Below are positions 28,839 through 38,270 of a stretch of 64,000 nt of DNA, piece by piece. A model generated the notes under the pieces. That model did no database searches. It was not told the DNA's origin and was given only the letters and a program-made list of their open reading frames with translations. Source of the DNA: Demequina sp. (GTDB taxonomy: Bacteria; Actinomycetota; Actinomycetes; Actinomycetales; Demequinaceae); contig JANQAD010000001.1 of the NCBI GenBank assembly GCA_024707205.1, positions 1,515,979-1,579,978 of the forward strand, written 5' to 3'. A program made the position numbers and the translations under genes. The number at the start of each line of letters is the position of its first letter. Position 1 is the stretch's first letter.

Positions 28839-29873
28839 GTGACGGCAACCCCCAGAGCTCCGCGCGCCACTCGCGTTGCGCGCCCGCTTGAGCGCCCGTC
28901 GGCGCCCAGGCTCTGGTGGCGCGCGCTGGTGGGGTTGGCGATGCTGGGGACGGCCGTGGTGCTGGCGCTGGGCCAGGGCGACGACCTGGCCGTACCCCCG
29001 TGGTTGATCCCGCTCATCATCTACTCGGCGGCCGTGGTGCTCGTGTGGAGCCCGCTCGACGCGGTGGTCGCCGCTGACGCGCGACGGCCCGACGTGGTCT
29101 CGCTTGTCTCGCGCGACGCGTGGCTGCGGATCGTCATCGGCTGGGTGGCCGCGGCGTTCGCCGTGTGGCTGTTCGCCATCAGCCCGTTCACGACGTCTCC
29201 TTTGGTGCGGACCTGGGTGGTTGTTGGGGTGGCCATGATCGCGACCGCCCTCCTGCTCGCCCCGTGGTGGCTGCGGCTCATCCGCCAGGTCACCGTGGAG
29301 CGCGAGAGGCGGGTTCGCGAGTTCGAGCGCGCGGAGATCGCCGCCCACCTGCACGACTCCGTGCTGCAGACGCTCACGCTCATCCGCGCGCACGCGACCG
29401 AGCCGGAGACGGTCGCCCGACTGGCTCGCGCCCAGGAGCGCGACCTGCGCGCGTATCTCTACCAGGAGCGACGCTCCCCGTCGGATTCGGTAGCTGCCGC
29501 CCTCACCGCCGCGATCAACGAGGTCGAGGACGCACTCGGGACTGCCATCGAGGTCGTTACCGTGGGCGACGTGCCCACCACGCCCGCCCTCGCCGCTGCG
29601 GTGAGCGCCGCGAGAGAGGCGGCGACAAACGCGGCCCGCCACGGCGTCGGGCCCATCTCCGTGTATGCCGAGGTGACGCCGGGAGGCTACGAGGTGTTCG
29701 TGCGCGACGCGGGCCCCGGCTTTGACCCCGAAGCCGTTTCCGAGGACCGCCTGGGGATTCGCAACTCGATCGTTGGGCGCGTCCGGAGGGCAGGCGGCGA
29801 CGCGTCGGTGAAGTCCGCGCCAGGGGAGCCGACCGAAGTGACCATCTCCGTCCCGCGAGAGGAGCAGAAGTGA
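28839..29873 (+). CDS. Sensor histidine kinase (HisKA_3 / NarX-LiaS-DesK type)
   Basis: About 344 residues from GTG 28839. The N-terminus has four membrane helices with little periplasmic sequence, an intramembrane-sensing layout. The HisKA_3 phosphoacceptor is AEIAAHLHDSVLQTLTLIRAH (His near residue 170), and the HATPase shows AAREAATNAARHG and RDAGPGFDPEAV with a short GIRNSIVGRVRRAGG region. It is the first gene of a two-gene unit (GTGA overlap with the LuxR regulator). Divergent from the PspC gene, so it probably senses envelope stress with that protein. A GACGAT hexamer 6 bases upstream hints at leaderless transcription. Confidence 0.88.
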   Translation: MTATPRAPRATRVARPLERPSAPRLWWRALVGLAMLGTAVVLALGQGDDLAVPPWLIPLIIYSAAVVLVWSPLDAVVAADARRPDVVSLVSRDAWLRIVIGWVAAAFAVWLFAISPFTTSPLVRTWVVVGVAMIATALLLAPWWLRLIRQVTVERERRVREFERAEIAAHLHDSVLQTLTLIRAHATEPETVARLARAQERDLRAYLYQERRSPSDSVAAALTAAINEVEDALGTAIEVVTVGDVPTTPALAAAVSAAREAATNAARHGVGPISVYAEVTPGGYEVFVRDAGPGFDPEAVSEDRLGIRNSIVGRVRRAGGDASVKSAPGEPTEVTISVPREEQK

Positions 29874-30520
29874 CCGTGCGAGTAGTGGTGGTCGACGACC
29901 ACGACGTGATCCGCGTCGGGGTGCGCGAGTCTTTGGATGCCGATATCGAGGTGGTGGGCGAGGCCCGCGACGTCGAGGGCGCGATCGAGGCCGTGCGGGT
30001 GACCCGCCCCGAGGTCGTCATTCTCGATGTGCATCTGCCAGGGGGAACCGGCGGCGGGGCGCTCGATGTGCTGGCCGAGGTACTGGGTGGCGCTGGCGCG
30101 CCGCGCGTGCTGGCCCTGTCCGTGTCCGATGCCGCGGAGGACGTGGTCGCCGTGGTGCGCGCCGGCGCTCGCGGCTACGTCACCAAGTCCATCTCCGGGC
30201 CCGACCTGAGCGACGCGGTGCGGCGCGTAGCCACGGGAGACGCGGTGTTCTCGCCGCGACTGGCCGGGTTCGTTCTTGACGCCTTCAACGCGGCCGGCGG
30301 CGAGGTCGCGGCCGCGGACGAGGACCTCGACAAGCTCACCGAGCGTGAGCAGGAGGTCATGCGGCTGATCGCGCGCGGATACACGTACAAGGAGGTGGGG
30401 GCGAAGCTCTTCATCTCCGTCAAGACCGTGGAGACCCACGTGGGGAAGGTGCTGCACAAGCTGCAGCTGTCGAACCGGCACGAGCTCGCGCACTGGGCGG
30501 CAAGGCGCGGGATCGCGTAG
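29870..30520 (+). CDS. LuxR/NarL-family response regulator
   Basis: A 216-residue regulator. The receiver domain (residues 1-120) keeps the acidic pair VVDDHD, the phosphoacceptor VVILDVHLPGG (Asp near residue 53) and the ALSVSDAAEDVV and GYVTKSISG switch segments. The output is a LuxR helix-turn-helix (LTEREQEVMRLIARGYTYKE, then VSVKTVETHVGKVLHKL-type recognition). GTG 29870 overlaps the kinase stop. With its kinase it is expected to control the divergent pspC gene and envelope functions. Confidence 0.92.
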   Translation: MTVRVVVVDDHDVIRVGVRESLDADIEVVGEARDVEGAIEAVRVTRPEVVILDVHLPGGTGGGALDVLAEVLGGAGAPRVLALSVSDAAEDVVAVVRAGARGYVTKSISGPDLSDAVRRVATGDAVFSPRLAGFVLDAFNAAGGEVAAADEDLDKLTEREQEVMRLIARGYTYKEVGAKLFISVKTVETHVGKVLHKLQLSNRHELAHWAARRGIA

Positions 30521-30545: not shown

Positions 30546-30750
30546 CGCGGTTTAGGCAGACTACGCATACCTCAGGCCGACTTTGGGGCTCGCCTAGGCA
30601 CGTTACGCATACCTTGCGGTCGTGACTCGCCAGCACCACCGCGCGCCCGGCGACAGCTTGTTGTGACTCGCCAAACTCCCAAGGTATGCGTGACCTGCCT
30701 AAACCGCGCGACTTTGGTTCCCAAGGTATGCGTGGGTTGCCTAAACCGCG
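30546..30750. repeat. Element A: paired direct/inverted 42-bp-spaced repeat units
   Basis: Between the response regulator and the convergent DUF1345-like gene are four related units. Two forward units begin GTTTAGGCA (30550) and GCCTAGGCA (30592), each ending in TACGCATACCT(TG). Two reverse-complement units start CAAGGTATGCG (30680 and 30722) and end TGCCTAAAC (30704 and 30746). Forward starts are exactly 42 bp apart and reverse ends exactly 42 bp apart; the symmetry centre is about 30648 and the total span is 197 bp. No ORF or promoter is evident. An element with the same geometry is at 38075-38270. Confidence 0.8.
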
Positions 30751-30774: not shown

Positions 30775-31473
30775 TCAGCCCAGCAGCGACACGGCGCGCG
30801 CGATCACAAGCGCAAGGATCACGAAGCCAGAGAGCGCCTCAAGCCCCATGATCGCCTTGGCACGGATGGACAGCGGCATAGAGTCGGACGCGGAGAACGC
30901 CATCGCGTTCGACAGCGACGAGTACAGGTAGTCGAAGAACTGCGGCCGCCAGTCATCAGGGCTGAAAGCGGAGGCCTTCTTCACCTCGGGGTCGGTGTCC
31001 TTGTCCTCGTCCTGGCTGAAGCGAAGATCGGCGGCGGGCACGGCGCTGCGGGGATTGGACCAGCGCTTGAAGGGTCCGCCGCGGTCCATCTCCCACAGCA
31101 CCAGAGCCACCGCGATCACGTTGGTGAGCCACACTTGCGCTGCGGTGAGGAGCAGGCGCGGCCCGGAATCGGGATCGGGCTCCACGAGCGCGATCACGAG
31201 TGTCACCACCGCCACCTGATTCGCCACGAACAGCACCAGCGCCTGGATGATCGACAGGACGCGTGCCGGTCCCGACTCGTTCTTGAACCTCACCGGGTTC
31301 AGCGCGATGAGCGGGATGAGCAGGCCTATCGTCACCGCCACGATGCCCCAGTGCAGCACCGGGTGCAGCAGGTTGGGCAGCATCGCGTAAAGAGTCGCGG
31401 CCGCGACCACGGCGATGACGGCGGGCCAGCGATGCTCGCCCGCGGGCAGTTCCTTGACCTTGGGTTTGGTCAC
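30775..31473 (-). CDS. DUF1345-like integral membrane protein
   Basis: A 232-residue protein with four or five membrane helices. The best marks are the C-terminal WRPQFFDYLYSSLSNAMAFSASDSMPLSIRAKAIMGLEALSGF segment, whose YLYxSxxNAxAFSxxDxMPL pattern matches the DUF1345/voltage-gated-channel-like family, and the early LLIPLIALNPVRF. A charged loop of about 40 residues (RFSQDEDKDTDPEVKKAS) lies in the middle. GTG 31473 begins VTKPKVKELPAGEHRWP. A TAGCCT hexamer lies 7 bases upstream. It is divergent from the HEAT-like gene and convergent on element A. Function unknown. Confidence 0.72.
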   Translation of the reverse strand: MTKPKVKELPAGEHRWPAVIAVVAAATLYAMLPNLLHPVLHWGIVAVTIGLLIPLIALNPVRFKNESGPARVLSIIQALVLFVANQVAVVTLVIALVEPDPDSGPRLLLTAAQVWLTNVIAVALVLWEMDRGGPFKRWSNPRSAVPAADLRFSQDEDKDTDPEVKKASAFSPDDWRPQFFDYLYSSLSNAMAFSASDSMPLSIRAKAIMGLEALSGFVILALVIARAVSLLG

Positions 31474-31491
31474 GTGGCTCAGGCTATCGCT

Positions 31492-31502
31492 GCCCGACGC
31501 TG
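31492..31502 (+). repeat. Intergenic copy of GCCCGACGCTG
   Basis: The motif lies in the divergent gap between the DUF1345-like gene and the HEAT-like gene. It is followed by GGGTTGCGCA, as is the near-copy at 11237, so both sites share about 21 bp. Confidence 0.6.
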
Positions 31503-31527
31503 GGGTTGCGCAAGCGCGCGAGCTGAG

Positions 31528-31533
31528 TAATCT
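31528..31533 (+). promoter_or_regulatory. -10 hexamer of a leaderless promoter (HEAT-like gene)
   Basis: TAATCT ends exactly 6 bases before ATG 31540; TTGCGC at 31506-31511 could be a -35 with a spacer of about 16. Confidence 0.55.
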
Positions 31534-31539
31534 GTGGCC

Positions 31540-31986
31540 ATGCCGAGTGACGTATCTCACACTGTGAGCACGCAAAGTGCTGTGCGACACGTGGATGTCG
31601 CCTATCTGCCAAGCGCCTACCGTCGCGACGAGGCAGACCCGTTGCGCGCGATCGCCTTCTGGAATGGCCAGCATCAGTACGAGCCGCCCACGGAGAGCGG
31701 CGCGCTGCGCATCCGCGAGGCGATCCGCGCGGAGCGCATCGGCGCCCTCGCCGCCCTCGCCCCGCAGCTGATCGGCCTAGCGCGCGACCCGCGTCCGTCT
31801 ATTCGCGCCGCCGCGGCCACGTGCTTCTCGATCCTGGCCACCGCGGGCCAGGCTCCCGCCGACCGCGAGGCGTGGCGCGCCATGCTCGGACTTGCGAAGT
31901 ACGACGACGACGCCGAGGTGCGCGCCGCCGCTGAGCGAGCTCTGCGGCACTTCGAGCACTGCGGAACGGTCGCCCTCGCCAGCTGA
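31540..31986 (+). CDS. Small protein with HEAT-like helical repeats, unknown function
   Basis: A 148-residue protein that is mostly helical. The middle shows paired helices with an alternating pattern: RIGALAALAPQLIGLARDPR, SIRAAAATCFSILATAG and EVRAAAERALRHFEHCG, recalling HEAT or Armadillo repeats. No catalytic residues or membrane segments. A basic/acidic N-terminus of about 45 residues precedes the repeats. ATG 31540 is preferred over the GTG at 31534 because it is 6 bases after the TAATCT hexamer. It is followed 80 bp later by pcrA. Family unknown. Confidence 0.55.
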   Translation: MPSDVSHTVSTQSAVRHVDVAYLPSAYRRDEADPLRAIAFWNGQHQYEPPTESGALRIREAIRAERIGALAALAPQLIGLARDPRPSIRAAAATCFSILATAGQAPADREAWRAMLGLAKYDDDAEVRAAAERALRHFEHCGTVALAS

Positions 31987-37161: not shown

Positions 37162-38049
37162 ATGGCAATCTTTCTGACTGCACAGTCCAAGGTCATCGTT
37201 CAGGGCATGACCGGCTCCGAGGGCATGAAGCACACCACGCGCATGCTCGCCTCCGGCACCGCGATCGTCGGTGGCGTGAACCCGCGCAAGGCGGGGGAGC
37301 AGGTTGACTTCCCTGGGGATGTCACGATCCCCGTGTACGGCACGGTGGCCGAGGCCATCGCCGCCACGGGTGCGGACGTCTCCGTGGTCTTCGTGCCGCC
37401 GGCCTTCACCAAGGCCGCCGTAATCGAGGCGGTCGACGCCGGCATGCCGCTCGTGGTAATCATCACCGAGGGTGTGCCCGTCAAGGACACCGCCGAGTTC
37501 TTCGAGTACGCGACCGCCCACGGCACGCGGCTGATCGGCCCCAACTGCCCCGGTCTCATCACTCCCGGCCAGTCCAACGTGGGCATCACCCCTGCAAACA
37601 TCACGGGTGCGGGCCGCATCGGGCTGGTGTCCAAGTCCGGAACGCTGACCTATCAGATGATGTTCGAGCTCAGGGATCTCGGGTTCTCCACGTGCGTCGG
37701 CATCGGCGGCGACCCCATCATCGGCACCACGCACATCGACTGCCTCGAGGCGTTCGAGAACGACCCCGACACGGCTGCGATCGTGATGATCGGCGAGATC
37801 GGCGGCGACGCGGAGGAGCGCGCGGCTGCGTACATCCGTGACCATGTCACCAAGCCGGTCGTGGGCTACGTTGCCGGATTCGAGGCGCCGGAAGGCAAGA
37901 CGATGGGCCACGCTGGGGCCATCGTGTCTGGATCGTCTGGGACTGCACAGGCCAAGAAGGAGGCCCTCGAGGCCGCCGGCGTTCGCGTGGGCAAGACCCC
38001 TTCCGAGACCGCCAACCTGATGCGGGAGATCCTCACGGCGAACGGCTAA
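37162..38049 (+). CDS. sucD: Succinyl-CoA synthetase alpha subunit
   Basis: A 295-residue CoA-binding subunit. It has the Rossmann-type CoA-binding [18 protein letters not shown] and the VNPRKAGEQ segment; the phosphohistidine is in [20 protein letters not shown] near residue 252. Ends [11 protein letters not shown]. Complete, normal length. Downstream is element B, not another operon gene. Confidence 0.96.
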
Positions 38050-38074: not shown

Positions 38075-38270
38075 GTTTAGGCACGTCAGTCCTGCTTCCG
38101 CGGCGTGGATCCCGTCGTTTAGGCACGTGGGTCCTGCTCCGCACCCTCGACCCCTCGACGCGCGGGCTGGCCCGGTCGCAGCGGCTACAGCCCGCAACTG
38201 GCCGTGATCAGGACTGAGCTGCCTAAACCGCGGGAGTTAGGCCCGGGACTCAGGACTGAGCTGCCTAAAC
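38075..38270. repeat. Element B: paired direct/inverted 42-bp-spaced repeat units
   Basis: Four 20-bp units lie between sucD and the PerM-like gene. Forward units start at 38075 (GTTTAGGCACGTCAGTCCTG) and 38117 (GTTTAGGCACGTGGGTCCTG); two identical inverted units CAGGACTGAGCTGCCTAAAC lie at 38209-38228 and 38251-38270. Spacing is exactly 42 bp on both arms, symmetry centre 38172.5, total 196 bp. The outer GTTTAGGCA is shared with element A (30546-30750); the inner word differs. No ORF. Confidence 0.85.

Follow-up and report, generated by a model that had tools for sequence, protein, structure and literature searches.

Facing arms of paired 22-bp sites in a Demequina genome and an AbiEi-Vsr-type gene as their possible partner

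The window analysed here, a 64,000-nucleotide stretch of a Demequina sp. genome (assembly GCA_024707205.1, contig JANQAD010000001.1, positions 1,515,979 to 1,579,978, forward strand), contains two intergenic elements, A and B, each composed of four sites in two arms that face one another (Table 1). Element A is situated between two convergent ORFs, whereas element B is flanked by two same-strand genes, sucD and the gene that follows it. A preliminary description of this DNA had placed the four units of element A by forward starts at 30550 and 30592 and reverse ends at 30704 and 30746, with a spacing of 42 bp in both arms and symmetry about 30648, and all of these values were exact. The inner word that it ascribed to all four units is present in the left units, where it reads TACGCATACC, but the right units carry CACGCATACC. 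Element B had been described as the geometry of A with a different inner word, and this one geometry was indeed found at 18 places in the genome.

Table 1. Sites of elements A and B and adjoining genes, in window coordinates.
Feature	Position	Strand	Remarks
Response-regulator-like ORF, LuxR-type end (ORF reading)	29870..30520	+	left of A; stop 29 nt before A
Element A, outer left site	30550..30571	+	GTTTAGGCA + 3 nt + word A (TACGCATACC)
Element A, inner left site	30592..30613	+	degenerate core GCCTAGGCA; 42 bp past outer site
Element A, inner right site	30683..30704	-	GTTTAGGCA + 3 nt + CACGCATACC
Element A, outer right site	30725..30746	-	GTTTAGGCA + 3 nt + CACGCATACC
Membrane-protein ORF (putative function)	30775..31674	-	right of A, convergent; 28 nt from A
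sucD-like gene (ORF reading)	37162..38049	+	left of B; stop 25 nt before B
Element B, outer left site	38075..38094	+	GTTTAGGCA + 3 nt + word B (CAGTCCTG)
Element B, inner left site	38117..38136	+	
Element B, inner right site	38209..38228	-	
Element B, outer right site	38251..38270	-	

Seven copies of TTTAGGCA are present in the window against 0.18 expected, a number that none of 100 shuffles reached. A blind scan of the window for four-site arrangements ranked B (106) and A (102) highest and the next best place at 71, which was also the peak of control scans at 36- and 47-bp spacing (n=508). A tRNA scan found none.

According to the preliminary description, the common geometry would be coincidence if a genome scan found no further copies with the same spacing, or a spacing that varied freely. 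The host genome is a single contig of 2,538,242 bases (2.54 Mb), in which a search for GTTTAGGCA pairs with 20-50 free bases allowed returned 19 pairs, every one at exactly 42 bp, whereas the reversed pattern had no match in the whole genome. The spacing is rigid also when mismatches are allowed: each of the 33 two-site arms found in the regions that were fetched is spaced at 42 bp. TTTAGGCA is found at 60 places genome-wide and its reverse at 12. A census of 20 fetched regions and the window, which holds 7 further TTTAGGCA places, gave at least 18 elements, 16 with two facing arms and 2 single arms; four sites were recognisable in 15 of the 18 and three in 1. This is a lower bound because the place at 2053023 was not fetched and elements without an exact TTTAGGCA would be missed.

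The inner word divides the 18 elements evenly, with word A in 9 (GTTTAGGCA-N3-YRCGCATACC) and word B in 9 (GTTTAGGCA-N3-SAGTCCTG); a mixed element at 1611214-1611411 combines three A sites with one B-like inner site. Pairwise identity was 0.86 among outer sites in both A arms (n=17) and B arms (n=16), 0.78 and 0.75 among inner sites, and 0.38 and 0.36 in the spacers, so dissimilar that the copies are either old or without a common source. Three bases inside each site vary freely. Facing inverted sites at gene ends could be taken for structured-RNA terminators or DNA cruciforms, but these variable triplets showed no co-variation between facing sites (1605 of 5000 shuffles reached the observed value), so no hairpin pairing is maintained between the arms, and the RNA or cruciform reading was rejected on this test. 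It is further opposed by the absence of any match in an Rfam scan of the window, by spacers that are unrelated to one another and by the gene-bearing copy described below, in which the arms are about 1 kb apart. The earlier view that element A is not a simple terminator is supported, and we give structures of this kind hardly any credence.

In 15 of the 18 elements, outer sites lie close to the end of the inward-reading gene, beginning -6 to 43 nt from its stop codon, and the gene contexts, as determined with a home-made simple codon-usage gene caller, are 10 convergent, 8 same-strand and 0 divergent. All eight same-strand A and B elements sit behind + strand genes and none behind - strand genes (two-sided p about 0.008), possibly by chance or as a product of the simple gene caller. 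The preference for stop codons and the lack of divergent contexts are among the points in favour of what is the main rival to the interpretation developed below, namely that the elements have a regulatory or roadblock role: the protein introduced in the next paragraph would be a regulator or architectural protein, and the arrays of two or four sites behind genes would be transcription roadblocks, insulators or anchors under host selection. The conservation of sites over spacers in old copies speaks for the same reading, as does the report that AbiEi proteins are autoregulators (PMC7319586, available to us in part).

Outside the window, two facing A arms about 1 kb apart, at 1114690-1115798, bracket a gene, P0001 (1114734-1115648, 304 aa), the stop codon of which falls within the inner site of the left arm. 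Its product scored 23.2 bits against Pfam DUF559, above the cut-off of 20.6, and 25.6 against MTES_1575, below the cut-off of 38.2; the match to Pfam AbiEi_4 reached an E value of 0.14 only, and that to PADLOC AbiEi 1.5e-9. An AlphaFold model built on a 33-sequence alignment (pLDDT 93.3, pTM 0.86) had a single Foldseek match at E < 0.001, the AbiEi antitoxin 6y8q. In structure comparisons of the model, residues 1-190 aligned with 6y8q (Z 11.3), residues 195-299 with the homing endonuclease I-Bth0305I (3r3p; Z 12.9) and residues 193-298 with Vsr (1cw0; Z 10.3), while 3hrl gave Z 13.5 on the C-terminal part (within residues 193-299). D230, E241, D243, H248, D257, R260 and D261 show no variation in any of the 33 sequences of the alignment. 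The model thus predicts that P0001 consists of an AbiEi-antitoxin fold followed by a PD-(D/E)XK domain of the Vsr/homing-endonuclease kind; nuclease activity has not been shown. Tn7 offers a precedent for several transposase sites per end together with a restriction-enzyme-like nuclease; TnsA itself appeared in the fold list at Z 6.2, but this lies in the background range and the match was set aside.

A partner gene for word B was not found among the six other P0001 homologs of this genome, within 350 bp of each. One of these regions, at the homolog L104 (2010907-2011722), has CCCGTACGCACATGAGCGTCG repeats at 41-bp spacing on both sides and no clean facing quartet. A third word, AGTGGANNNTSAGTTCC, forms a four-site element with 41-bp spacing near a dnaB-like gene (L015:6377-6510, genome about 1137377-1137510) and also adjoins the own-genome homolog L100.

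Homologs of P0001 were found in 46 of the 47 genomes of the family, and the GTTTAGGCA pair in one, being absent from the 46 others. All 27 named loci retrieved for this protein family came from Demequina. We scored 30 best homolog loci and the 6 own paralogs for facing four-site arms at 40-43 bp. The score was at least 76 at 20 of these 36 loci, and 24 exceeded the best of 30 sucD control loci (maximum 72). Two stricter controls ran higher: swapped flanks (150 draws) had a 95th percentile of 82 and a maximum of 87, inflated because related words are common to different loci, and other spacings in the same flanks (144 scans) had a 95th percentile of 75 and top values of 77, 81, 83, 87 and 93. 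As the controls reach 87 and 93, by score alone 11 of the 36 loci exceed 87 and 9 reach at least 94. The arms at homolog loci are spaced at 41 or 42 bp and their words vary from locus to locus. A cca-like gene adjoins 13 of the 30 loci, our own included, and 7 of these 13 also share a transporter neighbour; given this common neighbour, the loci are orthologs with different words.

Twenty-two of the 36 loci, in which the arms were readable, were compared for co-divergence of protein and sites. L104 (81) and L061 (84), which have repeats without a clean facing quartet, and L041 (74), with low-complexity repeats, were excluded, and L042, L045, L046 and L056 (72-74) were added by eye. Protein identity and site similarity were correlated across the 22 loci with r 0.77 (0 of 5000 permutations). 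When the comparison was repeated with a control, the sites gave r 0.74 (0/3000) against 0.17 (176/3000) for the DNA just outside; without two near-identical partners the values were 0.67 (0/3000) and 0.09 (651). Among the 11 orthologs at the cca locus the sites gave r 0.61 (1/3000) and the outside DNA -0.06 (1788), and among the 9 other loci 0.63 (28/3000) and 0.22 (675). This co-divergence of site words with the protein is the strongest evidence that P0001-type proteins read the sites, a strong inference from sequence comparison in the absence of binding data.

Beyond the family, matches to the MTES_1575 profile were found across the class in 212 of 296 genomes, although many of these matches lay within long ORFs. 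Clear arms on both sides were found at 3 of 20 sampled homologs of about 300 aa from other families: at 30 bp in L280, with a 22-bp period in L281, and at 40/41 bp, as two same-direction arrays, in L274. A further three had partial arms (L277, and L268 and L270 with 42-bp repeats upstream only), and no recognisable arms were found at the remaining 14 of the 20. The exact arm pair of L280 occurs six times in its genome (G140), twice bracketing the gene and four times elsewhere; it was absent from 8 other genomes, and the reversed control gave 0.

Gene-less copies are most readily followed through word E, GGGGAANTSAGCGACG, of which there are 61 exact sites in 6 of the 47 family genomes (13 in G010, 19 in G015, 15 in G019, 4 in G020, 8 in G024 and 2 in G036), the reversed pattern having one match in all 47. 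In five of the six genomes with E sites, these sites lie on both sides of the best P0001 homolog or next to it; the best homolog of G010, the sole one looked at there, carries a different word, even though E sites are frequent in that genome. A blast search with one E element and its flanks gave at least 24, 18 and 9 arm matches in G015, G010 and G019, respectively, at 72-89% identity (about 65 bases including the spacer, starting at query positions 1166-1198, orthologous place excluded). Since E arms match each other with the spacer included, they are copies of one another; the identity of their spacers was 0.52 (n=54). Of the 43 E arms that face a gene end, 24 begin at a distance of 28-46 nt past the stop codon, and the contexts (n=45) comprise 22 convergent, 19 same-strand and 4 divergent cases, a distribution that a regulatory function could again claim in its support. 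The 25-45 nt between stop codon and outer site (L136-L175) appear, on the coding strand, to be rich in C and poor in G, which recalls a Rho-loading sequence; no comparison was made with other gene ends. Two facing E arms lie 8-9.4 kb apart in both G010 (L163) and G015 (L173) and could be a single long unit or a pair of independent arms.

The preliminary description had argued that 42 bp, as four helical turns, puts all sites on one DNA face. The spacings within arms fit this idea: the 41-42 bp of the present arms is close to four turns, and the 30 and 22 bp seen in other families are close to three and two, from which we infer that neighbouring sites lie on one face. Phasing between the two arms is suggestive only, with p 0.0016 by jitter and 0.015 with equal distances kept together for the own elements, and 0.0096 and 0.16, respectively, for word E.

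Some E elements are at the same place in related genomes and others are not. The place behind sucD, occupied here by element B, was examined in 29 of the 43 other genomes with a match, and no four-site element was found in these 29: the best scores were 61-77, against 106 for B and 63-80 for other-spacing controls. At three other places, words were assigned by eye at the first two. A first convergent junction carries an E arm in G019, G024 and G010, a four-site element of another word, F, in G015, and the same F arms around an ORF of about 140 aa in G020; there is no clear element in G006, a different gene in G009, and other sequence follows in G008, G014 and G042. The ORF within the F arms of G020 (L180/L186), absent in G015, is possible cargo or points to an internal deletion. 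At a second junction (the L149 place), word E forms a single arm in G024 and a four-site element in G019, and G010 carries an E-like array; an F arm is present in G020, a further word in G042, and in G008 four sites with the word found around that genome's own gene (L054). Nothing was seen in G006 and G014, and G015, with one flank only, was not resolved. At the third place, G019 alone among five resolved genomes has E. Where G019 has an E arm, unrelated long inverted repeats were seen in G024 (L284, CTCCCGCTTTTCATGC...GCATAAAAAGCGAGAG) and G015 (L286, CTCTCCACACA...TGTGTGGAGAG).

It is here that the regulatory reading meets difficulties. Positions turn over between species, with different words or none at one and the same place, and at orthologous positions the sites were better conserved than the surrounding DNA in only 3 of 13 comparisons, so that turnover fits better than steady selection; we do not claim purifying selection on sites at such positions. 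Nor would a regulator need arms on both sides of its own gene or an invariant nuclease motif. Regulation remains conceivable and is to be taken seriously, but we think it improbable.

The elements are also compact, inverted, intergenic and multi-copy, as ordinary MITEs of an unlinked conventional transposase would be, in which case the AbiEi-Vsr-type gene would be a chance passenger between arms; the F arms of G020 demonstrate that arms can surround an unrelated ORF. Facing arms are present, but the relatives are too diverged for boundaries or target-site duplications to be defined. This reading is already disfavoured by the finding that one gene family is bracketed in many genomes by different, co-diverging words, and again in other families, and we regard it as very unlikely.

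Comparison with known systems brings out a likeness of life cycle rather than membership. REPINs are short, dispersed, intergenic facing repeats, with several families per genome that each have their own word; cognate repeats adjoin a single-copy RAYT gene with which they have long co-evolved, and RAYT genes are mostly stationary while REPINs spread and turn over (PMC3116915, as far as the accessible part of that paper goes). The 18 dispersed intergenic elements, one of which brackets the partner gene, resemble this arrangement. Protein and repeat type differ, however: the predicted partner has an AbiEi fold and a PD-(D/E)XK Vsr-like domain in place of a Y1 HUH transposase, and the repeats are not imperfect palindromes but bipartite sites of about 22 bp, not self-complementary by reading, paired head to tail at 41-42 bp in facing arms that lack hairpin co-variation. 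AbiEi antitoxins of type IV toxin-antitoxin systems bind 23-bp repeats, one monomer each and up to four in a row, Rv2827c occupying four at once (PMC7319586, from the portion open to us). The N-terminal fold of P0001 and the site length (about 22 against 23 bp) are similar, co-divergence of protein and sites agrees with them, and the sites would thus fit one monomer each, although there are no binding data. The AbiE operator lies in the antitoxin-toxin promoter, whereas the arms described here stand on either side of the gene and are found again behind genes of other kinds, and P0001, unlike AbiEi, ends in a nuclease-like domain (6y8q covers residues 1-190 only). That domain shares its catalytic fold and the invariant acidic/His motif with the Vsr-like (EDxHD) homing endonuclease I-Bth0305I, but the P0001 gene is outside any intron or intein, is bracketed by multi-site arms and has gene-less satellites.

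We consider it probable, without being certain, that elements A and B are gene-less satellites of an AbiEi-Vsr-type gene-plus-sites system. The anatomy, the copy number, the bracketing of the gene, the co-divergence of protein and sites and the lineage-specific occupancy are observed; binding, cutting and movement are inferred. Several points weigh against this reading. No movement, excision, target duplication or cutting was observed, only differences in occupancy between species, and the relatives are too diverged for clean empty-site boundaries. The spacers of the own-genome copies are dissimilar, word B lacks a gene in this genome, the stricter controls leave only 11 or 9 of the 36 homolog loci standing out by score, 14 of the 20 homologs sampled outside the family had no recognisable arms, and the homolog looked at in G010 does not carry word E. 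In such a system, one protein would bind each bipartite site of about 22 bp, two proteins would sit four helical turns apart on one arm, and the facing arm would be bound likewise. The nuclease domain may then use the bound arms as ends, copying the element or moving it, with new copies usually landing in the space just behind gene ends. The partner gene would be mostly stationary and vertically inherited, while the short satellites spread and are replaced. Word A would be the present word of P0001, and word B, which shares its first half-site with A and has no gene here, is probably left over from an earlier specificity or from a partner since lost; the shared half-site and the mixed element look as if this lineage had altered one half of the specificity, which is an inference.

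No description of such a system was found in the open-access full-text literature, among the matches listed, in agreement with the preliminary view that element A belongs to no known element class, and the findings point to an actinobacterial repeat-and-partner-gene system of a kind so far undescribed. A wider conjecture, which we put forward tentatively and hold to be quite possible rather than probable, is that actinobacteria have a second repeat-and-enzyme system, independent of REPIN-RAYT, in which single-copy AbiEi-Vsr-type genes act in trans on pairs of sites two, three or four turns apart, multiply gene-less satellites behind gene ends through copying driven by their nuclease, and re-tune their half-site words fast, giving every species a word of its own and leaving old words as fossils. 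If this is true, many genes annotated as DUF559 or AbiEi-like are parts of such units. Proteins of this type are common and unexplained in actinobacteria, and one branch of them would acquire a testable substrate in the form of sites, a spacing rule and a species word. The REPIN authors left open how short repeats in bacteria can persist alongside single-copy genes (PMC3116915, in the part accessible to us), and to this question the system would add a second, unrelated solution. It would also provide a set of naturally occurring protein-word pairs from which DNA recognition of the AbiEi type could be read.
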